Shown here: positions 33,228 to 45,198 of the stretch, piece after piece
Numbering within the stretch: position 1 is the first letter of the stretch
Layout of the letters: every line of letters begins with the position of its first letter
Assembly (NCBI RefSeq): GCF_014200595.1
Contig: NZ_JACHCG010000001.1
Span: 310,001 to 374,000 of the forward strand
Origin: Pedobacter cryoconitis
Lineage (GTDB): Bacteria > Bacteroidota > Bacteroidia > Sphingobacteriales > Sphingobacteriaceae
Reading direction: 5' to 3'
DNA length: 64,000 nucleotides
Program-made: the position numbers and the translations under genes
The notes under the pieces: generated by a model
Seen by the model: only the letters and a program-made list of their open reading frames with translations
Databases searched by the model: none
What the model was told of the DNA's origin: nothing

Positions 33228-33989
33228 TTATCTGTTTTCAAGCCAGCTTAAAAAACCACTCGTCTTTTCTTTACCGATCAGTAACTTATCAGGGCTGGGA
33301 ATAACCAGGTTAACAAATAGTTTCCTGTCGAAATAATGCTCTACTTCTTTAATCGCACTAAAGTTGATCAGGTACTGTCTGTTTAACCTGAAAAATTGTT
33401 TGGATGAAAGTAAGCTCTGTACCTGATCCATAGACTGCGTGATTGCATATTCCTGACCTTGAAAAGTCATCAACGTAGCAGAATCGTTCCTGATATAAAT
33501 AAAAGCAATAATTTCTGTTTGTATAGTCAGATACTTGTTGTTTTTAAAAACCAGGAAGCTTTTCTTTCCTTCATCCAGGCCAATCTTCTTTAGTAATCCA
33601 TCTAAATCAGGCTGGGAATGCTGCTGAAAAAAGTTTTTGAAATTCTCTACTTTTTCAAAAGCCGCATTCAACTCTTCCTTAGAAAAAGGCTTCAGTAAAT
33701 AATCAATTCCATTTGCTTTGATCGCGTCCATTGAATATTCACCATAGGCAGTACAGAAGATGACAGGGCACTGGATTTTAACCGATTTTAAGATTTCGAA
33801 AGAAAGACCATCAGAAAGCTGAATATCCATGAAAATAAGATCGGGCTGCTCATGCTCAGAAAAATAACTGACTGCACTCTCAATACTTTGCAGCTGCGCA
33901 ATAATTGTAGCCGCAGGTCTTAATTTGGAAATCATATTAGCCAATGATTTTGCTGCTTTAAGCTCGTCTTCAATGATGATTATTTTCAT
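33228..33989 (-). CDS. LytTR-family response regulator (second pair)
   Basis: A 253-residue regulator from the Met at 33989 (MKIIIIEDELKAAKSLANM); the frame opens 12 codons earlier but that would only lengthen the overlap with the kinase gene. Receiver: Asp55 in LIFMDIQLSDG, Lys in LLKPFSKEEL. LytTR domain: FLVFKNNKYLTIQTEIIAFIYIRND, then FFRLNRQYLINFSAIKEVEHYF. It overlaps the kinase gene by 20 bases and is translated with it. It is the same architecture as the pair near 14 kb but clearly diverged from it. Confidence 0.93.
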   Translation of the reverse strand: MKIIIIEDELKAAKSLANMISKLRPAATIIAQLQSIESAVSYFSEHEQPDLIFMDIQLSDGLSFEILKSVKIQCPVIFCTAYGEYSMDAIKANGIDYLLKPFSKEELNAAFEKVENFKNFFQQHSQPDLDGLLKKIGLDEGKKSFLVFKNNKYLTIQTEIIAFIYIRNDSATLMTFQGQEYAITQSMDQVQSLLSSKQFFRLNRQYLINFSAIKEVEHYFDRKLFVNLVIPSPDKLLIGKEKTSGFLSWLENR

Positions 33990-34989
33990 AGATAATAGGG
34001 AGTTTGATACTGAATAAGGTTTCACTGACCTGTATTTCGATTGCCTTATTTAAAAGATGTGTATAGCGCTGATTAATGTTCTCTAATCCCAGTCCCGTGG
34101 AAATTTCGCGGGTAGTTTTCAGCTGAAGCCTGTTTTCAACAACCAGTATATCCTTTTCTGAGTATAATTTGATTTTAAGGGGCTTATCAAAAGATACAAT
34201 GTTATGCTTGATACAATTTTCAACCAGAAGCTGAAGCGTAAAAGGAGGGATAAGAGACTGCTCATAATCCGGATTGATATCAATAGAAAGATCAATTCCC
34301 TCTTCAAAGCGCGCCTTCAACAGGAACACATAAGCATCCAGTATTTCCAGTTCTTCAGCAAGCCTGATCAGGTCAAGTTTACGGCTTTCCAGCGTAAACC
34401 GGTAAAAGTTAGAAAGTTTAAGGATAAAATCTACACTATGCTCATCCTCACTCTCCACCATATATTTTAAGGTGTTCAGGCTATTGAACAAGAAATGTGG
34501 ATTTACCTGCTGTTTAAGCAGTTCATATTGTGCACCAAGATTATCTGCTTTAGTTCTTTCCAGCTCTATACCTACCTGTTGATTTTGATAACTCTGATGT
34601 AAAAGATGAAGAAACATATAAAAAGCAATATTGACCAGGATACCCCTCACTTCAAACATTAACATCACCGGGCCAAAATTCAGATGTGATAACAGATATT
34701 GCTGGATACAAGCCAGGATAAACATCACTGCGATCCCGAAAAATAAGCCCTTAACCAAACGCATAACAGAAAAACCATTACTTACATCCTTTGAAGAATA
34801 AACCGGAAGCGTAAGGATATTATAATACCAGATCAGCACTGCAAACAGAAAGGTTACAGTGGAATCGACCAGTGCTTCATAAGGGTTAAAATGATGTTCG
34901 GCAATTTTTGGAACAGACGTTAATATGCCTAATAGAAGAGAGCTAAGCCATATTATTTTATTCGAAATCTTAAATGTTTTCTTATTCAT
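33970..34989 (-). CDS. LytS/YehU-type sensor histidine kinase (second pair)
   Basis: A 339-residue membrane kinase. Four transmembrane segments (about residues 12-30, 46-62, 82-102, 118-138) precede the phosphoacceptor His165 in LKQQVNPHFLFNSL; the ATPase shows VENCIKHNI and GLGLENINQRY. No extracytoplasmic ligand domain is visible. It is first in the operon with its LytTR partner. The short upstream region separates it from the divergent haem protein gene. Confidence 0.92.
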   Translation of the reverse strand: MNKKTFKISNKIIWLSSLLLGILTSVPKIAEHHFNPYEALVDSTVTFLFAVLIWYYNILTLPVYSSKDVSNGFSVMRLVKGLFFGIAVMFILACIQQYLLSHLNFGPVMLMFEVRGILVNIAFYMFLHLLHQSYQNQQVGIELERTKADNLGAQYELLKQQVNPHFLFNSLNTLKYMVESEDEHSVDFILKLSNFYRFTLESRKLDLIRLAEELEILDAYVFLLKARFEEGIDLSIDINPDYEQSLIPPFTLQLLVENCIKHNIVSFDKPLKIKLYSEKDILVVENRLQLKTTREISTGLGLENINQRYTHLLNKAIEIQVSETLFSIKLPIIYENNHH

Positions 34990-36242: not shown

Positions 36243-36698
36243 ATGAAAACTTATCTGTTATACTTATTAACCGGATTCCTGCTGATCAGCAATGGTTGCG
36301 TACCAGCAGCAAATAAAAAGATTACGATCAGGGCGCTTGAATTCAACAGCGGCAAACTAAAAGTTGTGACCAGTTATGCCAATGAAAAATTAAATATCAT
36401 GTCTATGCTATATGGTAATGAATCAGCATTAAAGTATAGTATCAAAGGGGATCATGGACATGTAGCTGGTGAAGTTTTTAAACTGGCCACGTTTGAGCAG
36501 CAGGATCATGAACTTTGGTATGGCAGTAAAATTAATGGGGCATTGCTCCGGGTTGAAACTATTCGTACCGTACAGCAGAAGGAGGGTATAACCCCTTTAT
36601 ATACCATTGAATATTACGGTACAGCCAAGCCTGATCAACCGGATAAGAATGCCAGGATTAAATTTATCCTTGAACAAAAAGCTTCTTTATTTCCATAA
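36243..36698 (+). CDS. Lipoprotein of unknown function
   Basis: A 151-residue protein with signal sequence MKTYLLYLLTGFLLISNGC, in which Cys19 is a plausible lipidation site though Asn at -2 is not ideal. The mature part is beta-rich (KKITIRALEFNSGKLKVVTSY, ALLRVETIRTV, GITPLYTIEYYGT). I do not recognise the family. It starts 35 bases after the dihaem protein on the same strand, so the two are probably cotranscribed. Confidence 0.7.
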   Translation: MKTYLLYLLTGFLLISNGCVPAANKKITIRALEFNSGKLKVVTSYANEKLNIMSMLYGNESALKYSIKGDHGHVAGEVFKLATFEQQDHELWYGSKINGALLRVETIRTVQQKEGITPLYTIEYYGTAKPDQPDKNARIKFILEQKASLFP

Positions 36699-36807
36699 AC
36701 AGGAATATTTTTTTTATTCGTCTGTTTTTTAGTTAGTTACTGGTATATGGCGTTTTCTTATTAAATAACGATATATGATGACAGATTTATCAATTAAATA
36801 ATGCTGA

Positions 36808-36815
36808 TACTTTTG
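36808..36815 (+). promoter_or_regulatory. -7 box TACTTTTG, candidate promoter of the lanthipeptide precursors
   Basis: An exact TAnnTTTG match about 90 bases before the first precursor. The -33 element is weak (TTTA, about 18 bases upstream). This gap (36699-36904) holds no other clear signal. Confidence 0.4.
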
Positions 36816-36904
36816 TAACATAAAAATGACATGTTTTGATTTTAGAAAAAAATCAATATTTTAGATCAACATATTTATTTTATTTAACCTAAAATCATTA
36901 CAAA

Positions 36905-37072
36905 ATGAAAAAAATTAAATTAAATTCAGAAAGATTGCGCCTTAAAAAAGAAAAAGTTGCTTCTTTAACTACTGATCAAATGGGTAAAGTTTATGGTGGA
37001 ATACCAGAAACAACTGCTACAAGAAGATTTTGCTGTGACTTTTCAGATGTGATCTGCCCTGAAGTGCCTTAG
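36905..37072 (+). CDS. Class I lanthipeptide precursor 1
   Basis: A 55-residue precursor, too short for common length cut-offs. The leader MKKIKLNSERLRLKKEKVAS LTTDQMGKVYGG has the LxLxK...V..L...Q(M)..V.GG pattern of Bacteroidetes lanthipeptides, ending in the double Gly for C39 cleavage. The 23-residue core begins IPETTATRRFCCDF and ends SDVICPEVP: Thr4, Thr5, Thr7, Ser15 can be dehydrated, and Cys11, Cys12, Cys19 can close rings. It is first in a five-gene array feeding the LanC/LanB/exporter genes downstream. Ring pattern and activity are not known. Confidence 0.92.
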   Translation: MKKIKLNSERLRLKKEKVASLTTDQMGKVYGGIPETTATRRFCCDFSDVICPEVP

Positions 37073-37145
37073 GATGTTGCGTTTAATACGTAGCATTAAA
37101 ATTCTAACTAAACACAATTTTTATTTAACCTAAAATCATTGCCAA

Positions 37146-37316
37146 ATGAAAAAAATTAAATTGAATTCAGAAAGACTTCGTTTGAAGAAAGAAAAAGTTG
37201 CTTCATTGACTACAGATCAAATGGGTAAAGTTTATGGTGGATTACCAGTGACAACGCTGACAAGACAATTCTGCTGCCACATCACAGATCCAGTAATCTG
37301 CTCTCTTGAACCTTAA
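37146..37316 (+). CDS. Class I lanthipeptide precursor 2
   Basis: A 56-residue precursor with the same 32-residue leader as precursor 1. The 24-residue core begins LPVTTLTRQFCCHI and ends TDPVICSLEP. Three Cys are kept in place, with Thr4, Thr5, Thr7, Thr15 and an extra Ser after the last Cys. Two substitutions set it apart: Gln for Arg/Lys before Phe, and His-Ile after the Cys pair. It is one residue longer between Thr15 and the last Cys than precursors 1 and 3. Confidence 0.92.
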   Translation: MKKIKLNSERLRLKKEKVASLTTDQMGKVYGGLPVTTLTRQFCCHITDPVICSLEP

Positions 37317-37390
37317 ACTTTATACTTCAACAAGTCACGTTAAAATTTTAATTAAACACAATTATTTATCTAACCTAAAATCATTGCCAA

Positions 37391-37558
37391 ATGAAAAAAA
37401 TTAAATTAAACTCAGAAAGACTACGTCTGAAAAAAGAAAAAGTTGCTTCATTGACCACGGAGCAAATGGGTAAAGTTTATGGTGGAATACCAGTTACGAC
37501 TATTACCAGAAGATTCTGCTGCGACCTGTCAGATTCGATCTGTCCTGTTGAGCCTTAG
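37391..37558 (+). CDS. Class I lanthipeptide precursor 3
   Basis: A 55-residue precursor; the leader differs from its neighbours only by Glu for Asp in TTEQMGKVYGG. The core begins IPVTTITRRFCCDL and ends SDSICPVEP. It has the largest number of dehydratable residues of the set (three Thr, two Ser) and the usual Cys11, Cys12, Cys19. The conserved (S/T)-D-x-(x)-I-C-P segment suggests a common C-terminal ring across the family (inference). Confidence 0.92.
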   Translation: MKKIKLNSERLRLKKEKVASLTTEQMGKVYGGIPVTTITRRFCCDLSDSICPVEP

Positions 37559-37630
37559 TCTTAAATTTAAACACATCACGTTTAAATCTTCGCAAAACAC
37601 AATTTTTATTTAACCTAAAATCATTATCAA

Positions 37631-37801
37631 ATGAAAAAAATTAAATTGAATTCAGAAAGACTACGCCTGAAAAAGGAAAAAGTTGCTTCATTGACTACAG
37701 ATCAAATGGGTAAAGTTTATGGTGGAATACCATTAACGACTATTACCAGGAAATTCTGCTGCGACTTTACAGATATTTTAATCTGTCCAGTTGAACCTTA
37801 G
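37631..37801 (+). CDS. Class I lanthipeptide precursor 4
   Basis: A 56-residue precursor with the common leader. The core begins IPLTTITRKFCCDF and ends TDILICPVEP. Like precursor 2 it has one extra residue before the last Cys. It has four Thr, no core Ser, three Cys. Arg-Lys before Phe keeps the basic pair of precursors 1 and 3. The product would be distinct in mass but probably share the ring topology of the others. Confidence 0.92.
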   Translation: MKKIKLNSERLRLKKEKVASLTTDQMGKVYGGIPLTTITRKFCCDFTDILICPVEP

Positions 37802-37876
37802 TCTTTTAGATTAAACTAACCATGTTTAAATCTTAACAAAACAGAACTAATTTATTTAACCTAAAATCATTACAAA

Positions 37877-38062
37877 ATGAAAAAAATTAAATTGAATTCA
37901 GAAAGACTGCGCCTGAAAAAGGAAAAAGTTGCTTCATTGACAACAGGAGAAATGAGTAAAATTTATGGTGGAGTAATCCCACCAATTACACTTGTTACCA
38001 GGAGAATCTGTTGTGAATTTACAGATATAGCAATGTGCGGTGTTGAACCCGTAGGCAATTAA
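37877..38062 (+). CDS. Class I lanthipeptide precursor 5 (diverged)
   Basis: A 61-residue precursor, the most diverged copy. The leader changes to TTGEMSKIYGG and the core begins VIPPITLVTRRICC, continues EFTDIAMCGVEPVGN. One of the paired Thr is lost, leaving three Thr for three Cys, so each Thr could have one partner. The C-terminus is extended past the conserved EP by VGN. It lies directly before the 34-bp palindrome and the LanC gene. It may be a specialised second peptide rather than a simple paralogue (inference). Confidence 0.92.
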   Translation: MKKIKLNSERLRLKKEKVASLTTGEMSKIYGGVIPPITLVTRRICCEFTDIAMCGVEPVGN

Positions 38063-38080
38063 GTTTAAAAACTTAAGGAT

Positions 38081-38114
38081 GAAGAATAGCCAGTTTATAA
38101 ACTGGCTATTCTTC
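38081..38114 (+). promoter_or_regulatory. 34-bp perfect palindrome between precursors and LanC
   Basis: Arms GAAGAATAGCCAGTTTA and its exact complement pair without mismatch. No T-run follows directly (a T8 stretch lies 24 bases later, just before the LanC start). It probably acts as an attenuator or mRNA-stability hairpin that keeps precursor mRNA in excess over enzyme mRNA. Confidence 0.75.
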
Positions 38115-38145
38115 CGTACTAAACAGTTGACGGCTAATTTTTTTT

Positions 38146-39342
38146 ATGAAAGACGAAATTCAAACTATACTTGATAAAATATATTTATCACTCAAAACCC
38201 ATGATTATTATCAGCCATCGCTCCTTGACGGAGAAGCAGGATATTGTCTTTTCGACCAGTTTTATATCAGCTATACTGGTATCGATGCGGTAAACCACGC
38301 TGACAATGTAGAGGATTTCGAAAATAATCTCCAAACACTTTCTGAAGATTCAATTGGTTGTCCCAGTCCTTTCTTTTCCTCTGGTAAAGCAGGGGTTAAC
38401 TGGTTTTTTTCCTATTTAAAAGCTAAGGATGTATTAGACGAAGAGAACTGGGAAATACTATGCGATGATGACCCTGAATTATTTGAGCAGGCTATTCTTT
38501 ACCTGAAAGATGGAAATTATGACTTTCTTCATGGTTCCATCGGAATAGCTTACCATTCATTATATGCGCAAACAAATCAATACACTACATTTCAGGAAAC
38601 ATTTTTTCAGCTGCTGTATAAGCTTGCCTATCAGTCACCAGATAAAATGTTTATTGCCCATTTTGATCTGACCAATCTAGTACCTGTACCCAATAAAATT
38701 AACCTGGGTATGGCACACGGTTTAATCAGTGTTTTAAAATTCTGTCTGCAATGTTATCAAAAGAATATCTGTTCTGTAGCTGCTAAAAAACTGGCACTGG
38801 ATATCGCAGACCTGTTCAGGTCAACTATCAACAGAAATACCAATAACAGCCTGTTCCCTAATATATTGATGCTCGATGAGCCGGCAAAAGGATACAGTCG
38901 TGTGGGATGGTGTTATGGAGACTTAAGCATAGGTTTTGTACTCTACCAGGCCGGGGTGGTTTTTGAAGACACTGCCCTGAAAGATTTGGGTACAGAAATA
39001 CTTATACATACCTCCAAAAGAAGAAGTGAAGAACAAACTATGGTCAGGGACGCCGGGATTTGTCATGGCAGTGCAGGTATAGCTCATGTTTACAATAAAA
39101 TGTGGCATTACACTAAAAACCCTGTTTTCAAAGAAGCCTGCGACTTTTGGATACAGCAAACATTAGACTTTTCCATCCACCCGGATGGCTATGCAGGTTT
39201 CAAATCCTATTCACCAGATGCCAGTGGAAAATATACAAACTCTTATGGATTATTAAATGGAATAAGTGGAATTGGATTGGTACTTCTCAGCTACCTCACC
39301 GGAGATTTTAGCTGGGATTACTGCATCATGCTTAATGATTAA
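38146..39342 (+). CDS. lanC: LanC-like lanthionine synthetase (cyclase)
   Basis: A 398-residue LanC-fold alpha/alpha-barrel protein. Zn ligands are visible: Cys256 in GWCYGD and the pair Cys306-His307 in GICHGSAG. Repeats of the GxxG type (FLHGSIGIAYHSLY, NLGMAHGLISVL, GLLNGISGIGLVLL) mark the barrel turns. It would catalyse Michael addition of precursor Cys thiols to dehydrated Ser/Thr. It follows the five precursors and the palindrome, and its stop is four bases before the LanB start. The order precursors-LanC-LanB is unusual compared with nisin-type clusters, where LanB precedes LanC. Confidence 0.95.
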   Translation: MKDEIQTILDKIYLSLKTHDYYQPSLLDGEAGYCLFDQFYISYTGIDAVNHADNVEDFENNLQTLSEDSIGCPSPFFSSGKAGVNWFFSYLKAKDVLDEENWEILCDDDPELFEQAILYLKDGNYDFLHGSIGIAYHSLYAQTNQYTTFQETFFQLLYKLAYQSPDKMFIAHFDLTNLVPVPNKINLGMAHGLISVLKFCLQCYQKNICSVAAKKLALDIADLFRSTINRNTNNSLFPNILMLDEPAKGYSRVGWCYGDLSIGFVLYQAGVVFEDTALKDLGTEILIHTSKRRSEEQTMVRDAGICHGSAGIAHVYNKMWHYTKNPVFKEACDFWIQQTLDFSIHPDGYAGFKSYSPDASGKYTNSYGLLNGISGIGLVLLSYLTGDFSWDYCIMLND

Positions 39343-39346
39343 ATAT

Positions 39347-42300
39347 ATGATTAAAAGTTATTCCTTTGTTTTACTGCGCGCTCCATTGCAGAGCCTGAAC
39401 TTAGCCAATGACTTTTCGGCAAACAGACAAACCCTGCTTCAGGAAGGAATCTATTTATCCTCACCCGAATTCTGGAAAGAACTGTTAAAAGAGAATGATC
39501 TTAGCACAAAAGAAAAGGAAAAACTGGAGCTGTCCTTTGCCAAATACTGGCTGCGCAGTTGTAGCAGATGTACACCATATGGTACATTGGCGGGCGTTAA
39601 ATTGGTAGACATCAAAGCAGAAGAAACTAACCTTCAGCTGGGTCATGCCGATCAGCATATCCGTAGTGTCCGTTTGGATATGAACTATCTTAACGAAATT
39701 ATCACTTACCTGAACACTGTTCCTGAAATTGTCAGACAGCTTAAGTTCTTTACGAACAATAGCCTATACGAACTCCCGGACAGTTATCGCTATGCAACTT
39801 ATTCTTTGATAGATACGCAGCGTGTTTACGAGCTCACCTCTATAGAAAAGACAAATTATATAACAGAAATTCTTCTGGCAGCCCAAAAAGGCGCTACACT
39901 GGAAAGTCTGGCACAAATACTTAAAAGTCATGAAAATATAAGTCTGGAAGAGGCTGCTGAATTTATTACCGATATGGTTGATTCGCAACTTATCTTATCA
40001 GACTTAGAACCCTGTGTTACCGGTAAAGATCCCCTGGATCTGTTAATTGAGCGCTTAGAAACGCTTCATCATGTCGATGAATTACTTGTGAAATTAAAGG
40101 AAGGTCAACAGCTGATCAAGAACCCGAAGGCAGGAGTGAGCTACTATAAAGAAATAGAAAATAGCTTAAAAGCACTCGATTTCCCGATAGAAATTCCACC
40201 AAATCTATTGCAAACTGATCTTTTCTTTGCTGCAAAAGGGCAGACAATCGATCAAAGTATTATTGACCGTATTCTTAAACAAACCGAAGACTTATACGCG
40301 CTGAGCTTGTCGGGCGAAGGCAGGGATCTGAATAACTTTAAAACTAAGTTTTCGGCGCGTTATGAATTTGAAGAAGTCCCGTTATCATTAGCATTAGATG
40401 CAGAGCTGGGCATAGGTTATGCCGGGAGTGACCAATCCTCAGCCGGCGAAAACAGGCTGGTTGAAAACCTCATTTTAAAAGGCCCTGTTGCCGGAAAAAC
40501 TATAAATTTTGACTACATACAGGAATTTGTTCTGCATAAACATAACGACTATCTTCAACATCAAAAAAGCACTATTGAAATAACTGAGGAAGAATTAAAA
40601 TCATTCAGGCCCAGGATTGCAAACTATAAATTTTCAAACAGCTTACACCTGATGGGAAGTTTGTTGAAATCTGACGGTAAGCTGGATGCAGAAAATTTCA
40701 TTTTTGAGCTTTTCAGTTTTGGAGGGACTTCTTCAGGTAATCTCCTGTCCAGATTTGCTCATGGAGATCAGCAGCTCTGTGATTTTACAAAGGACATCCT
40801 TAAAGAAGAAGAGAAGGAATTCCCGGATCATATTTATGCAGATATTGTACACCTTCCGCAAGCCAGGGTCGGTAATGTATTGCTCAGACCTCTATTGCGT
40901 AACTATGAAATACCTTATATCGGGAAATCTGGTTTAACACCAGAAAATCAAATACCTATAGAAGATATCATGGTTTGCGTTAAAAACAATAAAGTACTTT
41001 TGAGGAGTAAAAAACATAATAAATATATCCTTCCCAAGCTTACTTCTGCTCATAATTTCTCCACCCGGAGTTTACCCGTTTATAAGTTCTTATGTGACTT
41101 GCAAACGCAGGGACAAGCACAACCTGATGCCTGGAACTGGGGCGTATTATCTTCGCTGACTTATCTGCCAAGGGTTGTTTACAAAAATTTAATCGTCAGA
41201 AAAGCACGATGGATCCTTAAAAAAGAAGAGTTGCCAGCTATTCCAAAAGAGAGGAATGACTATTTGAGCTATTGCCAGGCACTGAGAACTCAATACCAGA
41301 TCCCGCAGAAAGTTGCTTATGTGGAACACGACAATAAGCTTTTACTTGACCTGGAACAACAAGCAGGTGCTGACTTGTTTATTCATTATCTGAAACGTTA
41401 TGAAAGTGTGCAGCTTGAAGAATTCCTGTTTACCAATGAAAACTGTATCGTTTACGACGCAAATGGAAATCCGCATACCAATGAATTGATCATCCCCTTA
41501 AAAAGGGAACAAGGCGTTTCAGATCATAGTGTGGTAAAACGTACCGTGAAAATTGACCTGGCCTCTCCAAAGAATGAGATCCAGGTTAAAAGAAAGTTTT
41601 CTCCATTTAGTGAGTGGTTGTTTTTCAAAATTTATTGCGGGCCGACAGCAGGTGAAAAAATACTGAAAAACGAACTGCTGGAATTTGTGGAAGACGGTAT
41701 CGATCAAAACTTATTTGAGAAATTTCATTTCATCCGGTACATCGATGAATCTTTTCACATCCGGGTCAGATTTTACAACTCAGACTTAGCAAAGCAATTG
41801 AAAGTTCAGCAACAATTCATGGAAAAACTGGAACCGTTGCTTGCCAATAACCTGATCAGTAAAGTAGTGCTGGATACTTATTCAAGAGAGCTGGAACGTT
41901 ATGGCGCGCCCATTATAACAGAAGTAGAATCTCTGTTTTTCAATGATAGCCTGGCAGTACTCAAATTTGCCAGACTGCTGGACAGTCCTGAATTAGAAGA
42001 ATACCGGTTTTTATTTGCACTTAGAGGAGCAGATATGCTTTTAACCGATTTTGGTTATACAACTCTTGAGAAAAAAGAGCTGTTAAAAAGGCTCCAGATG
42101 GGGTTTTTCAGAGAATTTGGCAGTGATCCAGGATTACAAAAACAACTGAATGAGAAATATCGCCAAAAACAGAAAAGTATCTTTTTGCATATGAATGCTG
42201 ATCTGGATGAATTAAATGAGATTGAAGAAGCGGTGGCCGTTTATCAAAAAAGGTCGGCCATGAACAGCGTGGTTTATCAAACTATTCTGCTTAAACAAGG

Positions 42301-42475
42301 TAACCATACACCTCCCGACGACCTTATGGAAAGCCTCTTGCATATGTATCTGAATCGTTTGCTGGTCAATAATCCGCGGAAACATGAATTGGTTATATAT
42401 CATTTTCTGGAAAAATATTACAGCTCACAACTGGCTATCTCAACCCATGTACCTAAATTAGCTATTACTCAATAA
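39347..42475 (+). CDS. lanB: LanB-type lantibiotic dehydratase (full length)
   Basis: A 1042-residue class I dehydratase. The start at 39347 (MIKSYSFVLLRAPLQSLN) matches the family opening; the frame open to 39266 lies inside LanC. Residues ~1-700 form the tRNA-Glu-dependent glutamylation domain (FAKYWLRSCSRCTPYGTLAGV near 60-80; HKHNDYLQHQKST; PQARVGNVLLRPLLRNYEIPYIG; KYILPKLTSAHNFS). Residues ~755-1042 form the elimination (SpaB_C, thiopeptide-type) domain (EWLFFKIYCGPTAGEKILKN, FHFIRYIDESFHIRVRFY). Both halves are in one chain, so Ser/Thr dehydration should need no extra subunit. It is encoded between LanC and the exporter. Confidence 0.95.
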   Translation: MIKSYSFVLLRAPLQSLNLANDFSANRQTLLQEGIYLSSPEFWKELLKENDLSTKEKEKLELSFAKYWLRSCSRCTPYGTLAGVKLVDIKAEETNLQLGHADQHIRSVRLDMNYLNEIITYLNTVPEIVRQLKFFTNNSLYELPDSYRYATYSLIDTQRVYELTSIEKTNYITEILLAAQKGATLESLAQILKSHENISLEEAAEFITDMVDSQLILSDLEPCVTGKDPLDLLIERLETLHHVDELLVKLKEGQQLIKNPKAGVSYYKEIENSLKALDFPIEIPPNLLQTDLFFAAKGQTIDQSIIDRILKQTEDLYALSLSGEGRDLNNFKTKFSARYEFEEVPLSLALDAELGIGYAGSDQSSAGENRLVENLILKGPVAGKTINFDYIQEFVLHKHNDYLQHQKSTIEITEEELKSFRPRIANYKFSNSLHLMGSLLKSDGKLDAENFIFELFSFGGTSSGNLLSRFAHGDQQLCDFTKDILKEEEKEFPDHIYADIVHLPQARVGNVLLRPLLRNYEIPYIGKSGLTPENQIPIEDIMVCVKNNKVLLRSKKHNKYILPKLTSAHNFSTRSLPVYKFLCDLQTQGQAQPDAWNWGVLSSLTYLPRVVYKNLIVRKARWILKKEELPAIPKERNDYLSYCQALRTQYQIPQKVAYVEHDNKLLLDLEQQAGADLFIHYLKRYESVQLEEFLFTNENCIVYDANGNPHTNELIIPLKREQGVSDHSVVKRTVKIDLASPKNEIQVKRKFSPFSEWLFFKIYCGPTAGEKILKNELLEFVEDGIDQNLFEKFHFIRYIDESFHIRVRFYNSDLAKQLKVQQQFMEKLEPLLANNLISKVVLDTYSRELERYGAPIITEVESLFFNDSLAVLKFARLLDSPELEEYRFLFALRGADMLLTDFGYTTLEKKELLKRLQMGFFREFGSDPGLQKQLNEKYRQKQKSIFLHMNADLDELNEIEEAVAVYQKRSAMNSVVYQTILLKQGNHTPPDDLMESLLHMYLNRLLVNNPRKHELVIYHFLEKYYSSQLAISTHVPKLAITQ

Positions 42476-42492
42476 TAAATACAAAGCGCTTC

Positions 42493-44667
42493 ATGAGTTT
42501 TCCCTTTTACAAACAATTCGATCTGATGGACTGCGGTCCCACCTGTCTTCGCATGGTAGCTAAACATTACGGGCGCAGTTTTAAAGTGCAAACATTGAGG
42601 CAATACTGCGAAATCAACAGAGAAGGAGTATCCCTGTTAGGTATTCATAATGCTGCGGAAAAGATTGGATTTGAGTCCGATGCGATTATAACCAGTTTGA
42701 AGGGATTGGGAGAAACCCAATTGCCGGTAATTTTGCACTGGAGACAGAATCACTTTGTGGTACTTCATAAAATAAAGAACGATAAATACTTCATTGTTGA
42801 CCCTGGAAATGGACATGTCAAACTTAACGCAGAAGACTTTTCCCGGAATTGGATAGATAAGGAAAGTACTGAAGGTATAGCCCTCACCTTAACTCCAACT
42901 CCTGAATTTTATGCACATGAAAATGAAGCAGGCAGTGAAGTTCGCTGGTCATTTTTATTTGGCTATTTCAAAACTTACCGCAAGCTGGTTATTCAACTGG
43001 TTTTTGGTCTGGCTGCGGGAAGTATATTACAATTGATTGCTCCATTTTTAACGCAATCCATTGTGGATGTCGGAATTAATACCCGTAACCTTAATTTTAT
43101 CTATATCATTCTTATCGCACAAGGAGCATTGATTATTGGACGTATCAGTGTAGACTTTATCCGGTCATGGATATTATTGCATATCAGTATCCGGGTTAAT
43201 ATTTCTATCCTGACCGACTTCATTATCAAGCTGATGAAGCTCCCAATGGTCTTTTTTGATACCAAGATGACTGGTGATATTATGCAGCGGATGAATGATC
43301 AGAAGAAGATAGAAACCTTTTTGACAGGAACGGCATTAACTACCCTGTTTTCTATCTTTAACTTATTGATTTTCTCCGTAGTGATTGCTTATTATAATCT
43401 CACTATCTTTTTTGTCTTTCTGATCAGCAGTTCATTATACATGGGCTGGATTGTCCTGTTTCTTAATCGCCGGAAGATACTTAACTATAAAAGTTTTGAA
43501 ATATCAGCAAAAAACCAGAGCAATGTAGTACAGCTGGTTACCGGGATGCAGGAAATCAAACTCAACAACTGCGAACAGCAGAAACGGTGGGAATGGGAAG
43601 ATATTCAAGCAAGTCTGTTTAATGTTAATGTAAAAAACCTGGCTTTGAGCCAGTATCAGCAAGGCGGATCAACACTAATTAACGAAGGAAAAAATCTGCT
43701 GATCGCATTTTTAAGCGCTAAAGCAGTGATAGACGGAGATATGACGCTGGGTGCTATGGTCGCAGTACAATATATTATTGGACAACTGAACGGGCCCATA
43801 GAACAAATGCTTGGTTTCATACAAGGCTTTCAGGATGCGAGGATCAGTTTGGAACGGCTAAATGAAATTTATCAGATGGATGATGAAGAGCAGCCGGATA
43901 AAGAATGGAACGACACCCTTCCAGCTCAGAAAGATATCAGTATTGAGCAGTTATCATTTCGTTATCCCGGTACAGGAAATCTGCCCGTACTCCGGAACAT
44001 TGATCTGAAAATCCCACAAGGCAAAACAACTGCAATTGTAGGGATGAGCGGTAGTGGAAAAACTACAATCCTGAAGTTATTGTTAAGGTTTTATCAACCC
44101 GATCATGGTGAAATCAACATTGGAACTGAATCATTGAACAGTATCAGCTATAAAGCATGGCGTGAGGAATGCGGCGTAGTGATGCAGGACGGCTTTATAT
44201 TTTCTGATACGATTGAACGTAATATTGCTGTAGGTGAAATCCCTGCTGATCCGGTGAAATTGAACCACGCCATCAGAGTAGCTAACATCCAGGATTTTAT
44301 TGATGGTTTGCCGCGTGGCTTAAATACAATGATCGGTGCCGAAGGTAATGGCGTAAGTCAGGGACAGCTACAGCGGATGTTAATAGCCCGTGCCGTATAC
44401 AAAGATCCCGAGTATATCTTTTTTGATGAAGCTACTAATTCACTGGACGCTAATAACGAGTGGACGATCATGAATAATCTCAAAGAATTTTTTACGGGAA
44501 GAACTGTAATTATCGTAGCCCACCGGTTGAGTACAGTCAGGGATGCTGATAATATCATTGTACTGGATAAGGGGCGTATCATTGAACAAGGGACACACCA
44601 GGAATTGAGCCAGTTAAAAGGGGCTTATTATCTGCTTGTCAAAAATCAGCTGGAGTTAGGAACATAA
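42493..44667 (+). CDS. Peptidase-containing ABC exporter (C39, lanthipeptide leader peptidase)
   Basis: A 724-residue bifunctional exporter. N-terminal C39 peptidase: Gln8, Cys14 in QFDLMDCGPTC, His87 in RQNHFVVLHKI and Asp103 in VDPGNG complete the triad. Six transmembrane helices lie about 155-450. The ATPase has Walker A GMSGSGKTT (~516-524), signature VSQGQ (a variant of LSGGQ), Walker B YIFFDEATNSLD and H-loop AHRLS. It would cut after the YGG of the leaders and export the modified cores, replacing both LanP and LanT. The first five residues are followed at once by the peptidase, so there is no inactive leader domain. Confidence 0.95.
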   Translation: MSFPFYKQFDLMDCGPTCLRMVAKHYGRSFKVQTLRQYCEINREGVSLLGIHNAAEKIGFESDAIITSLKGLGETQLPVILHWRQNHFVVLHKIKNDKYFIVDPGNGHVKLNAEDFSRNWIDKESTEGIALTLTPTPEFYAHENEAGSEVRWSFLFGYFKTYRKLVIQLVFGLAAGSILQLIAPFLTQSIVDVGINTRNLNFIYIILIAQGALIIGRISVDFIRSWILLHISIRVNISILTDFIIKLMKLPMVFFDTKMTGDIMQRMNDQKKIETFLTGTALTTLFSIFNLLIFSVVIAYYNLTIFFVFLISSSLYMGWIVLFLNRRKILNYKSFEISAKNQSNVVQLVTGMQEIKLNNCEQQKRWEWEDIQASLFNVNVKNLALSQYQQGGSTLINEGKNLLIAFLSAKAVIDGDMTLGAMVAVQYIIGQLNGPIEQMLGFIQGFQDARISLERLNEIYQMDDEEQPDKEWNDTLPAQKDISIEQLSFRYPGTGNLPVLRNIDLKIPQGKTTAIVGMSGSGKTTILKLLLRFYQPDHGEINIGTESLNSISYKAWREECGVVMQDGFIFSDTIERNIAVGEIPADPVKLNHAIRVANIQDFIDGLPRGLNTMIGAEGNGVSQGQLQRMLIARAVYKDPEYIFFDEATNSLDANNEWTIMNNLKEFFTGRTVIIVAHRLSTVRDADNIIVLDKGRIIEQGTHQELSQLKGAYYLLVKNQLELGT

Positions 44668-44679
44668 TCAACATTTAAA

Positions 44680-45198
44680 ATGCCATCAGTAAAAAAACAA
44701 AATAGTCAGCAGGTAGTTCATAGCCCTGCAATTCAAGCAATTATTACCTCAGTTCCTTCGTGGTTACTGCGCTGGGGGATCTTTATGTTTTTTGTGCTCC
44801 TGATTTTAATCACAGGACTTTCTGCTTTTATTAAATATCCTGACCTTGTGATCACTACATTGAAAATTGATACTTCAGCCGATCAGAAATTTTATGGACA
44901 AATGGCTGTTCCGCAAAATATGCTGACCAAAGTTAAAGAAGGGCAGGAAGTACTGATTAAGTTAAGAAGATATCCTTATCAAACTTATGGTACTATCAGA
45001 GGTACTATTAAATACATAGATCCGATTCCTCAGCGGGATAGTATTTTCATTTCAAAGGTTGATTTTAACAATGATTTATCCGCATTGCCGGGACATATAT
45101 TATTAAAAGATAAAATGATGGCTGATGCAGAAATCATTACGCAAGATGTTACTATCTTGCAGCGACTGAGCAGGAGTATATTTAAAAGCGATAATTAA
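44680..45198 (+). CDS. Short HlyD-like membrane adaptor (no coiled-coil hairpin)
   Basis: A 172-residue protein: cytoplasmic tail, one transmembrane helix (LLRWGIFMFFVLLILITGLSAFI), the usual post-helix IKYPDLVITTLKI, then directly GQMAVPQNMLTKVKEGQEVLIKLRRYPYQTYGTIRGTIKYIDPIP and AEIITQDVTILQRLSRS. Full HlyD-type adaptors of Bacteroidetes exporters have ~430 residues, with lipoyl and long coiled-coil parts between the first and second segments; these ~250 residues are absent. The junction is in frame and both ends are intact, so it could be a natural minimal adaptor. It starts 12 bases after the exporter. Confidence 0.85.
   Translation: MPSVKKQNSQQVVHSPAIQAIITSVPSWLLRWGIFMFFVLLILITGLSAFIKYPDLVITTLKIDTSADQKFYGQMAVPQNMLTKVKEGQEVLIKLRRYPYQTYGTIRGTIKYIDPIPQRDSIFISKVDFNNDLSALPGHILLKDKMMADAEIITQDVTILQRLSRSIFKSDN

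Follow-up and report, generated by a model that had tools for sequence, protein, structure and literature searches.

The 64,000-nucleotide stretch of DNA from the soil bacterium Pedobacter cryoconitis analysed here (the window; positions 310,001 to 374,000 of contig NZ_JACHCG010000001.1) carries at 36905..45198, on the + strand, a single run of genes encoding five precursors, a LanC, a LanB, a C39-ABC exporter and a 172-aa HlyD-like protein. From its sequence the locus is a class I lanthipeptide cluster, a cluster type already known, and its lanthipeptide part adds a new member to that type, as expected for Pedobacter. The adaptor of the exporter is unusual and is the least ordinary part of the cluster. 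The run is probably a complete class I lanthipeptide operon whose exporter is paired with a reduced HlyD homologue, and this homologue would most likely be a cap or activator on the transporter side that does not build a tunnel itself. A previous sequence-only reading had listed the short HlyD-like protein, which was found, and drew nothing from its shortness. The gene content, motifs and conservation presented below were directly observed, as were the deletion in the adaptor, the purifying selection on it and an RNA stem-loop.

The barrel-only adaptor

The adaptor gene (44680..45198, + strand) encodes 172 aa comprising a transmembrane segment and a beta-barrel, with neither a lipoyl domain nor an alpha-hairpin. 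Profile positions 64-322, 259 in all, are cleanly deleted from the interior of the protein, and with them the two lipoyl halves and the hairpin that extends to TolC. The N-terminal membrane anchor and the C-terminal beta-barrel are kept in the profile alignment and in the AF2 model, and the hairpin is absent from both. The protein is 60% shorter than its full-length relatives and scores 28.5 bits against TIGR01843, whose curated cut-off is 208.65. It is under purifying selection (dN/dS 0.03-0.12) and its reading frame is intact in six species, by which decay or a sequencing error as the source of the short protein was ruled out. Nine proteins of 169-174 aa, 60-99% identical to it and several of them from metagenomes, are present in the protein database.

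In the standard picture of type I export a continuous tunnel runs from the transporter through the adaptor hairpin to TolC. The HlyD-type adaptors of type I secretion share with the window adaptor the N-terminal transmembrane segment and the C-terminal barrel, but they possess the lipoyl domain and the alpha-hairpin, both missing here. BesA of Borrelia is hairpin-less like the window adaptor; however, its chains have 262-275 residues against 172, and the window adaptor lacks the lipoyl domain as well. BesA serves an RND transporter, according to the available part of PMC4446572, whereas the gene adjacent to the window adaptor encodes a C39 peptidase-containing ABC exporter (PCAT). Searches of an open library for work on adaptors, and the available parts of PMC4446572 and PMC8277102, showed no peptide-exporter adaptor in which hairpin and lipoyl domain are missing together.

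The C39 exporter

The exporter (42493..44667, + strand, 724 aa) comprises PF03412, PF00664 and PF00005. The Cys/His/Asp triad announced by the sequence-only reading was located as C14/H87/D103, together with Walker A, signature-like (VSQGQ), Walker B and H-loop motifs; the roles of the triad are presumed from work on ComA and PCATs. Residues 6-717 match structure 4ry2, which we take to be PCAT1, with E=4.6e-104. Both characters that define the PCAT/AMS type, an N-terminal C39 domain fused to an ABC exporter and double-glycine leaders (22 of 22 end in YGG), were found, and cleavage after the leader is predicted.

Adaptors beside other C39 exporters

Adaptors were surveyed at the LanB loci from a search of 145 Pedobacter genomes (the window's own included) and at 80 C39 loci, picked one after another from the listed C39 hits of 60 genomes, passing over loci already included. 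Also counted were L084, L090, L094 and L095, without LanB, of which L084 was fetched for its short adaptor. A LanB-like gene was considered linked within 10 kb, an adaptor within 3.5 kb on the same strand, and an adaptor was called reduced below 350 aa. The survey contained 117 C39-ABC proteins, of which L155 was dropped (its adaptor frame runs into the contig end); 25 of the 61 loci with a LanB-like gene had no whole C39 exporter in the fetched stretch and were uninformative on adaptors.

Among the 36 exporters with a LanB-like gene the adaptor was reduced in 21, full in 6 and not detected in 9, and among the 80 without LanB it was reduced in one (L084), full in 72 and not detected in 7. Where an adaptor was detected, it was thus shorter than 350 aa in 21/27 cases near LanB versus 1/73 without LanB (raw Fisher p 3e-15). 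Restricting the latter group to the C39 list (n=76) left 70 full, 6 without a detected adaptor and none reduced. Exceptions to the trend are L083, a LanB locus outside the count (its exporter is cut by the stretch end) with a 442-aa adaptor nearby (G137:C39:10197), and L135, counted as having none, with a 430-aa adaptor homologue on the opposite strand; scoring both as full gives 21 reduced versus 8 full near LanB (raw p 3e-14).

Relatedness weighs more heavily than these exceptions: the contrast weakened when the C39 proteins were merged at 90, 80, 70 and 60% identity (p 7e-8, 9e-4, 0.02 and 0.10, respectively). An exporter tree (quick search, LG+G4) requires 4 changes to explain the reduced state, of which at least 3 fall on starred branches; the independent-pairs test had just 2 to 4 pairs, too few for significance. 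The reduced adaptors reflect 3-4 origins only. A unique link between LanB and adaptor reduction was not upheld as a general rule, the contrast being non-significant at 60% merging and short adaptors without LanB being present in other genera.

Reduction was identified in steps: adaptors of 317-319 aa with a shortened hairpin, of 230-242 aa with no hairpin matched, and of 160-178 aa. In L107-L111 (230 aa) and in L096, L100 and L101 (160-170 aa) the adaptor profile was significant in the N-terminal part only and the barrel match was non-significant, while the 166-aa protein of L098 was detected solely by a second-round profile; these proteins were called short adaptors by position, length and N-terminus. 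The window exporter, its orthologues and L084 adjoin two exporters whose adaptors have 364 aa, within a group that has full-length ones; the grouping of the window exporter and its orthologues with L084 (support 94) is unstarred. Since they nest in a group with full-length adaptors, loss is the likely direction.

A look across the family (301 genomes) recovered similar short adaptors in other genera. No LanB match was present in the fetched stretches of L219, L220, L221, L222, L225 and L227 (genera g14 and g21), loci picked for shortness that consequently give no rate. Left out were L223 and L224, whose stretches show only 214-aa C-terminal fragments of an adaptor and lack an exporter, and L226 (adaptor frame starting at a contig end), the last with a LanC and a two-piece LanB.

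Some of these loci deserve description on their own. L084 (G093, C25:206000-224000) comprises a 178-aa barrel-only adaptor by a C39 exporter, a Cys-containing GG peptide and a 526-aa protein that by eye resembles a VKOR/thioredoxin fusion, with no LanB match. L219 (G336, C1:2988000-3006000), from another genus, contains a C39 exporter with a barrel-only adaptor of 186 aa, and three peptides rich in Cys that carry leaders of the double-glycine type, again with no LanB match. Finally, L119, L122, L127 and L130 are LanB/LanC/C39 clusters with a 317-aa protein, perhaps a luciferase-like monooxygenase judging from its sequence, between LanC and the exporter; no adaptor was detected in these four.

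Precursors, leader and cores

The five precursors (55-61 aa) are lanA1 (36905..37072, core IPETTATRRFCCDFSDVICPEVP), lanA2 (37146..37316, core LPVTTLTRQFCCHITDPVICSLEP), lanA3 (37391..37558, core IPVTTITRRFCCDLSDSICPVEP), lanA4 (37631..37801, core IPLTTITRKFCCDFTDILICPVEP) and lanA5 (37877..38062, core VIPPITLVTRRICCEFTDIAMCGVEPVGN), all on the + strand. All five were present as the sequence-only reading had described them, with a common leader that in every case ends in YGG. NF038153 (lant_leader_L1a), the NCBIfam model of class I lanthipeptide leaders, exceeded its cut-off of 22 in lanA1 (34.3 bits), lanA2 and lanA5, the three that were scanned individually, and in all five in a genome search. 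The window leader, L-R-L-K-K-EKVAS-L, is an exact fit to LxLxKx5L, and leaders of this kind, many with a GG end, and C39 proteases have been published for Bacteroidetes class I lanthipeptides (PMC7268733, available part). The earlier assignment as a class I cluster with GG leaders cut by the C39 exporter is supported by this pattern, by the family models and by the intact enzyme motifs.

Twenty-two precursors with 17 distinct cores were identified across six clusters of six species (5, 5, 5, 5, 1 and 1). The leader is nearly constant among them and is followed after YGG by the pattern P-x-T-x-x-T-x-x-x-C-C-x-x-[ST]-x(3,4)-C, with the exception of window core 5, which has two additional residues near its start. 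Thr4, Thr7, Cys11, Cys12, Ser/Thr15 and Cys19/20 are invariant in 22/22 cores, and one further relative has Ser at core position 7. The three invariant Ser/Thr and three invariant Cys most likely form three (methyl)lanthionine rings, one per Cys. A topology of T7-C11, T4-C12 and S/T15-C19/20 is plausible, in which the first two rings, at the N-terminal side, would overlap. In core 5 of the window, with exactly three Thr/Ser and three Cys, and in core 5 of three other clusters, the invariant Ser/Thr are the only ones present.

Four species share core 3 unchanged, and in one of them, G014 (L077), it occurs twice; the remaining cores diverge. Read from the DNA, three lanA3 orthologues differ from the window gene at silent sites only, and the product of core 3 may be under the strongest constraint of the five.

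Modification enzymes and cluster layout

The cyclase gene lanC (38146..39342, + strand) encodes a separate protein of 398 aa (Pfam LANC_like, E=1.6e-34) with a Cys / Cys-His pattern. The residues Cys256, Cys306 and His307 were located as the sequence-only reading had them, and by analogy with NisC we take them to be the Zn ligands. The dehydratase gene lanB (39347..42475, + strand) encodes the announced full-length protein of 1042 aa, counted from an internal ATG, the start in the ORF list being a GTG 81 bases upstream. Lant_dehydr_N (E=2e-134) and Lant_dehydr_C (E=6e-58) both matched; PF04738 and PF14028, the glutamylation and elimination domains, are each covered over their whole length. The motifs RSCSRCTPYG (70), HIRVR (804), ERYG (850) and HMYLNR (999) were identified, with roles presumed from NisB.

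As previously stated, all genes lie on one strand with small gaps: 72-75 bases between precursors, 83 upstream of lanC, and 4, 17 and 12 bases thereafter. The closest named record is Pedobacter cryoconitis DSM 14825, with a 96% identical LanB. Among the 145 Pedobacter genomes, LanB orthologues 71-96% identical were identified in G013, G127, G014, G015 and G042, and the order LanA-LanC-LanB-C39-short HlyD is kept in all five; the orthologous cluster of P. lusitanus (G042), L079, has a single precursor, and its adaptor is on record under 'Contig34'. Precursor 1 is matched by 12 proteins, including 3 of the window itself; those with names are all from Pedobacter, several being labelled class I lanthipeptide. 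Over the whole 6.35-Mb genome the leader profile has 6 matches: the five of this cluster, and a sixth at G000:C1:1426682, a short way downstream of a different LanB. The arrangement is not due to chance, because the gene order recurs in five further Pedobacter genomes and the leader matches concentrate in this cluster (5/6 genome-wide).

The LanB elimination domain has six matches in the genome (G000): C3:556732, C1:1425723, C1:351615, C1:3063867, C7:124248 and C6:171100. One of the five outside the cluster, L087, is the locus with the lanthipeptide-type leader just mentioned. Upstream of the cluster, at 33228-34989 on the - strand, lies a pair of genes that by eye resemble a LytTR-type response regulator and a sensor kinase. 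Regulators resembling this pair were found near several other Pedobacter LanB loci, but the fetched surroundings of the orthologous clusters did not show the pair itself.

Upstream modules and RNA stem-loop

A 26-nt module, TTTATTTAACCTAAAATCATTACAAA, lies directly 5' of lanA1 (36879..36904, + strand), with near-identical copies before precursors 2-5, as compared by eye over the 60 nt upstream of the five starts.

A conserved RNA stem-loop is located between lanA5 and lanC (38081..38114, + strand), with 15 bp here and 13 bp common to six orthologs. It was detected between the last precursor and lanC in 6/6 clusters, with a z of -4.7, and in the alignment of the six sequences 98.7% of the cells pair. 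Changes on both sides occur in 5/13 pairs, equalled in 0/500 shuffles, and slid registers show at most one; further pair types are unexceptional (equalled in 88/500 shuffles). The five pairs changed on both sides trace to two of the sequences, P. lusitanus with four and G015 with one; the remaining four are close relatives. As judged from this alignment, the stem-loop is covarying across orthologs. It has no match to an Rfam family. An intrinsic terminator was considered and rejected: no T-run follows directly, and a scan of 36600-38200 gave no + strand terminator. A promoter scan gave 11 sites against 8.0 expected, no informative excess. Stem-loops in other lantibiotic operons set the ratio of precursor to enzyme mRNA, and the present one probably does so too, by analogy.

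Comparison with known lanthipeptides

To our knowledge, the only characterised class I lanthipeptides of Pedobacter are the PedA15 peptides of P. lusitanus NL19. As reportedly described by Bothwell in 2021, they have several precursors and a LanC without Zn motifs. Their cluster (ped15) is probably L096, as we presume (G042, P. lusitanus, C1:1118000-1134000), which comprises seven GG-leader precursors, a 405-aa LanC-like protein, a LanB and, 2 kb away, a C39 exporter. L096 resembles the window in genus, in class and in a 167-aa short adaptor-like protein, there adjoining LanB; however, its AKQGLSCITGDNSC-type cores are unlike those of the window, and its LanC lacks the WCxG and CHG motifs, both present in the window LanC. 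PedA15.2 has been cut with the GG protease LahT150 (PMC12328550, available part). The PedA15 lanthipeptides probably come from a cluster other than the window's type.

Pinensins are produced by Chitinophaga pinensis. Like the window peptides they are class I products of Bacteroidetes, but their LanB is split (PMC7268733, available part) whereas the window has one full-length LanB. The Bacteroidetes class I lanthipeptides of Walker 2020 (PMC7268733) resemble the window in leader motif, GG end, LanB plus LanC, and C39 protease; window-type cores, the stem-loop and a barrel-only adaptor are not mentioned in the available part of that work, and the word HlyD is nowhere in its main text.

Proposed mechanism and alternatives

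We infer the chemistry, ring topology, processing and export route of the product as follows. LanB would dehydrate Ser/Thr of the five cores and LanC would couple the dehydrated residues to the three Cys, after which the C39 domain would cut the leader behind YGG and the ABC part would carry the peptide out of the cytoplasm. With its inner-membrane anchor and a beta-barrel seated on the transporter, the reduced adaptor would act as transporter-side cap or activator and, being without a hairpin, would make no bridge of its own to TolC or the outer membrane. The peptides would thus enter the periplasm and exit along a different path; alternatively, the cap and another adaptor would be part of one complex. 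Several observations weigh against this scheme. In some cores, reaction at Thr5, Ser17 and Ser21 is also conceivable. No immunity gene and no dedicated outer-membrane gene were recognised among the cluster's genes (ORF list and Pfam scan). The AF2 model of the adaptor is of middling confidence (pLDDT 67, pTM 0.50) and its match to HlyD in 7sgr is weak (rmsd 9.2), with a Z barely above that of unrelated helicases in the list (8.9). Finally, two or more full-length HlyD homologues are encoded in the genome (among them one of 455 aa and a 431-aa frame adjoining a different C39 exporter), along with many TolC-type proteins (63 OEP-domain matches), so that a shared canonical complex is conceivable.

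With full-length HlyD homologues encoded elsewhere in the genome, the short adaptor might join one of them in a mixed complex: it retains the barrel and would form mixed rings with the unlinked protein, and one-step export via TolC would be preserved. However, the short adaptor lacks the lipoyl domain, which stabilises adaptor self-assembly according to the available part of a review (PMC8277102), and its nearest full-length homologue in the genome is just 34-43% identical over the two shared parts, so that mixed rings appear rather unlikely. That the adaptor is a decaying remnant beside an exporter acting alone is very improbable; its shortness would fit, and the 9/36 LanB-linked exporters without detected adaptor (L135 among them) suggest that an exporter may manage alone, but the frame is intact in six species at low dN/dS, the deletion joins two domains cleanly and proteins of the same length recur in the database. 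The LanB-type chemistry might also serve a non-lanthionine product, such as dehydroamino acids only or thiopeptide-like rings, the C-terminal half of LanB being above the cut-off of the NCBIfam thiopeptide-type model TIGR03891. This model, however, covers the same stretch as the Pfam dehydratase C-terminal domain, the Zn pattern is present in LanC, no YcaO turned up among the nine proteins of the cluster and its surroundings scanned with Pfam, and Cys and Ser/Thr are co-conserved in the cores; we regard such a product as extremely improbable.

Implications

A lanthipeptide operon with a cap-like reduced adaptor being the probable reading for the window, a wider proposal is made tentatively. 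Double-glycine exporters of Sphingobacteriaceae, above all in lanthipeptide clusters, might have repeatedly shed the adaptor half that reaches TolC, and the barrel-only end state of 170 residues might regulate the transporter without a trans-envelope tunnel, export then being a two-step process through the periplasm. The window lanthipeptides would enlarge a class of Gram-negative products that is already known and still growing. The adaptor finding makes a mechanistic question testable and is a more general point than the lanthipeptides: with a barrel-only adaptor, nature offers a way of testing whether peptides have to be exported in one step. The 172-residue protein, containing the transporter-facing part only, would be convenient for structural work on exporter-adaptor contacts, and a conserved natural adaptor stripped of everything beyond the barrel suggests which part the transporter itself needs.

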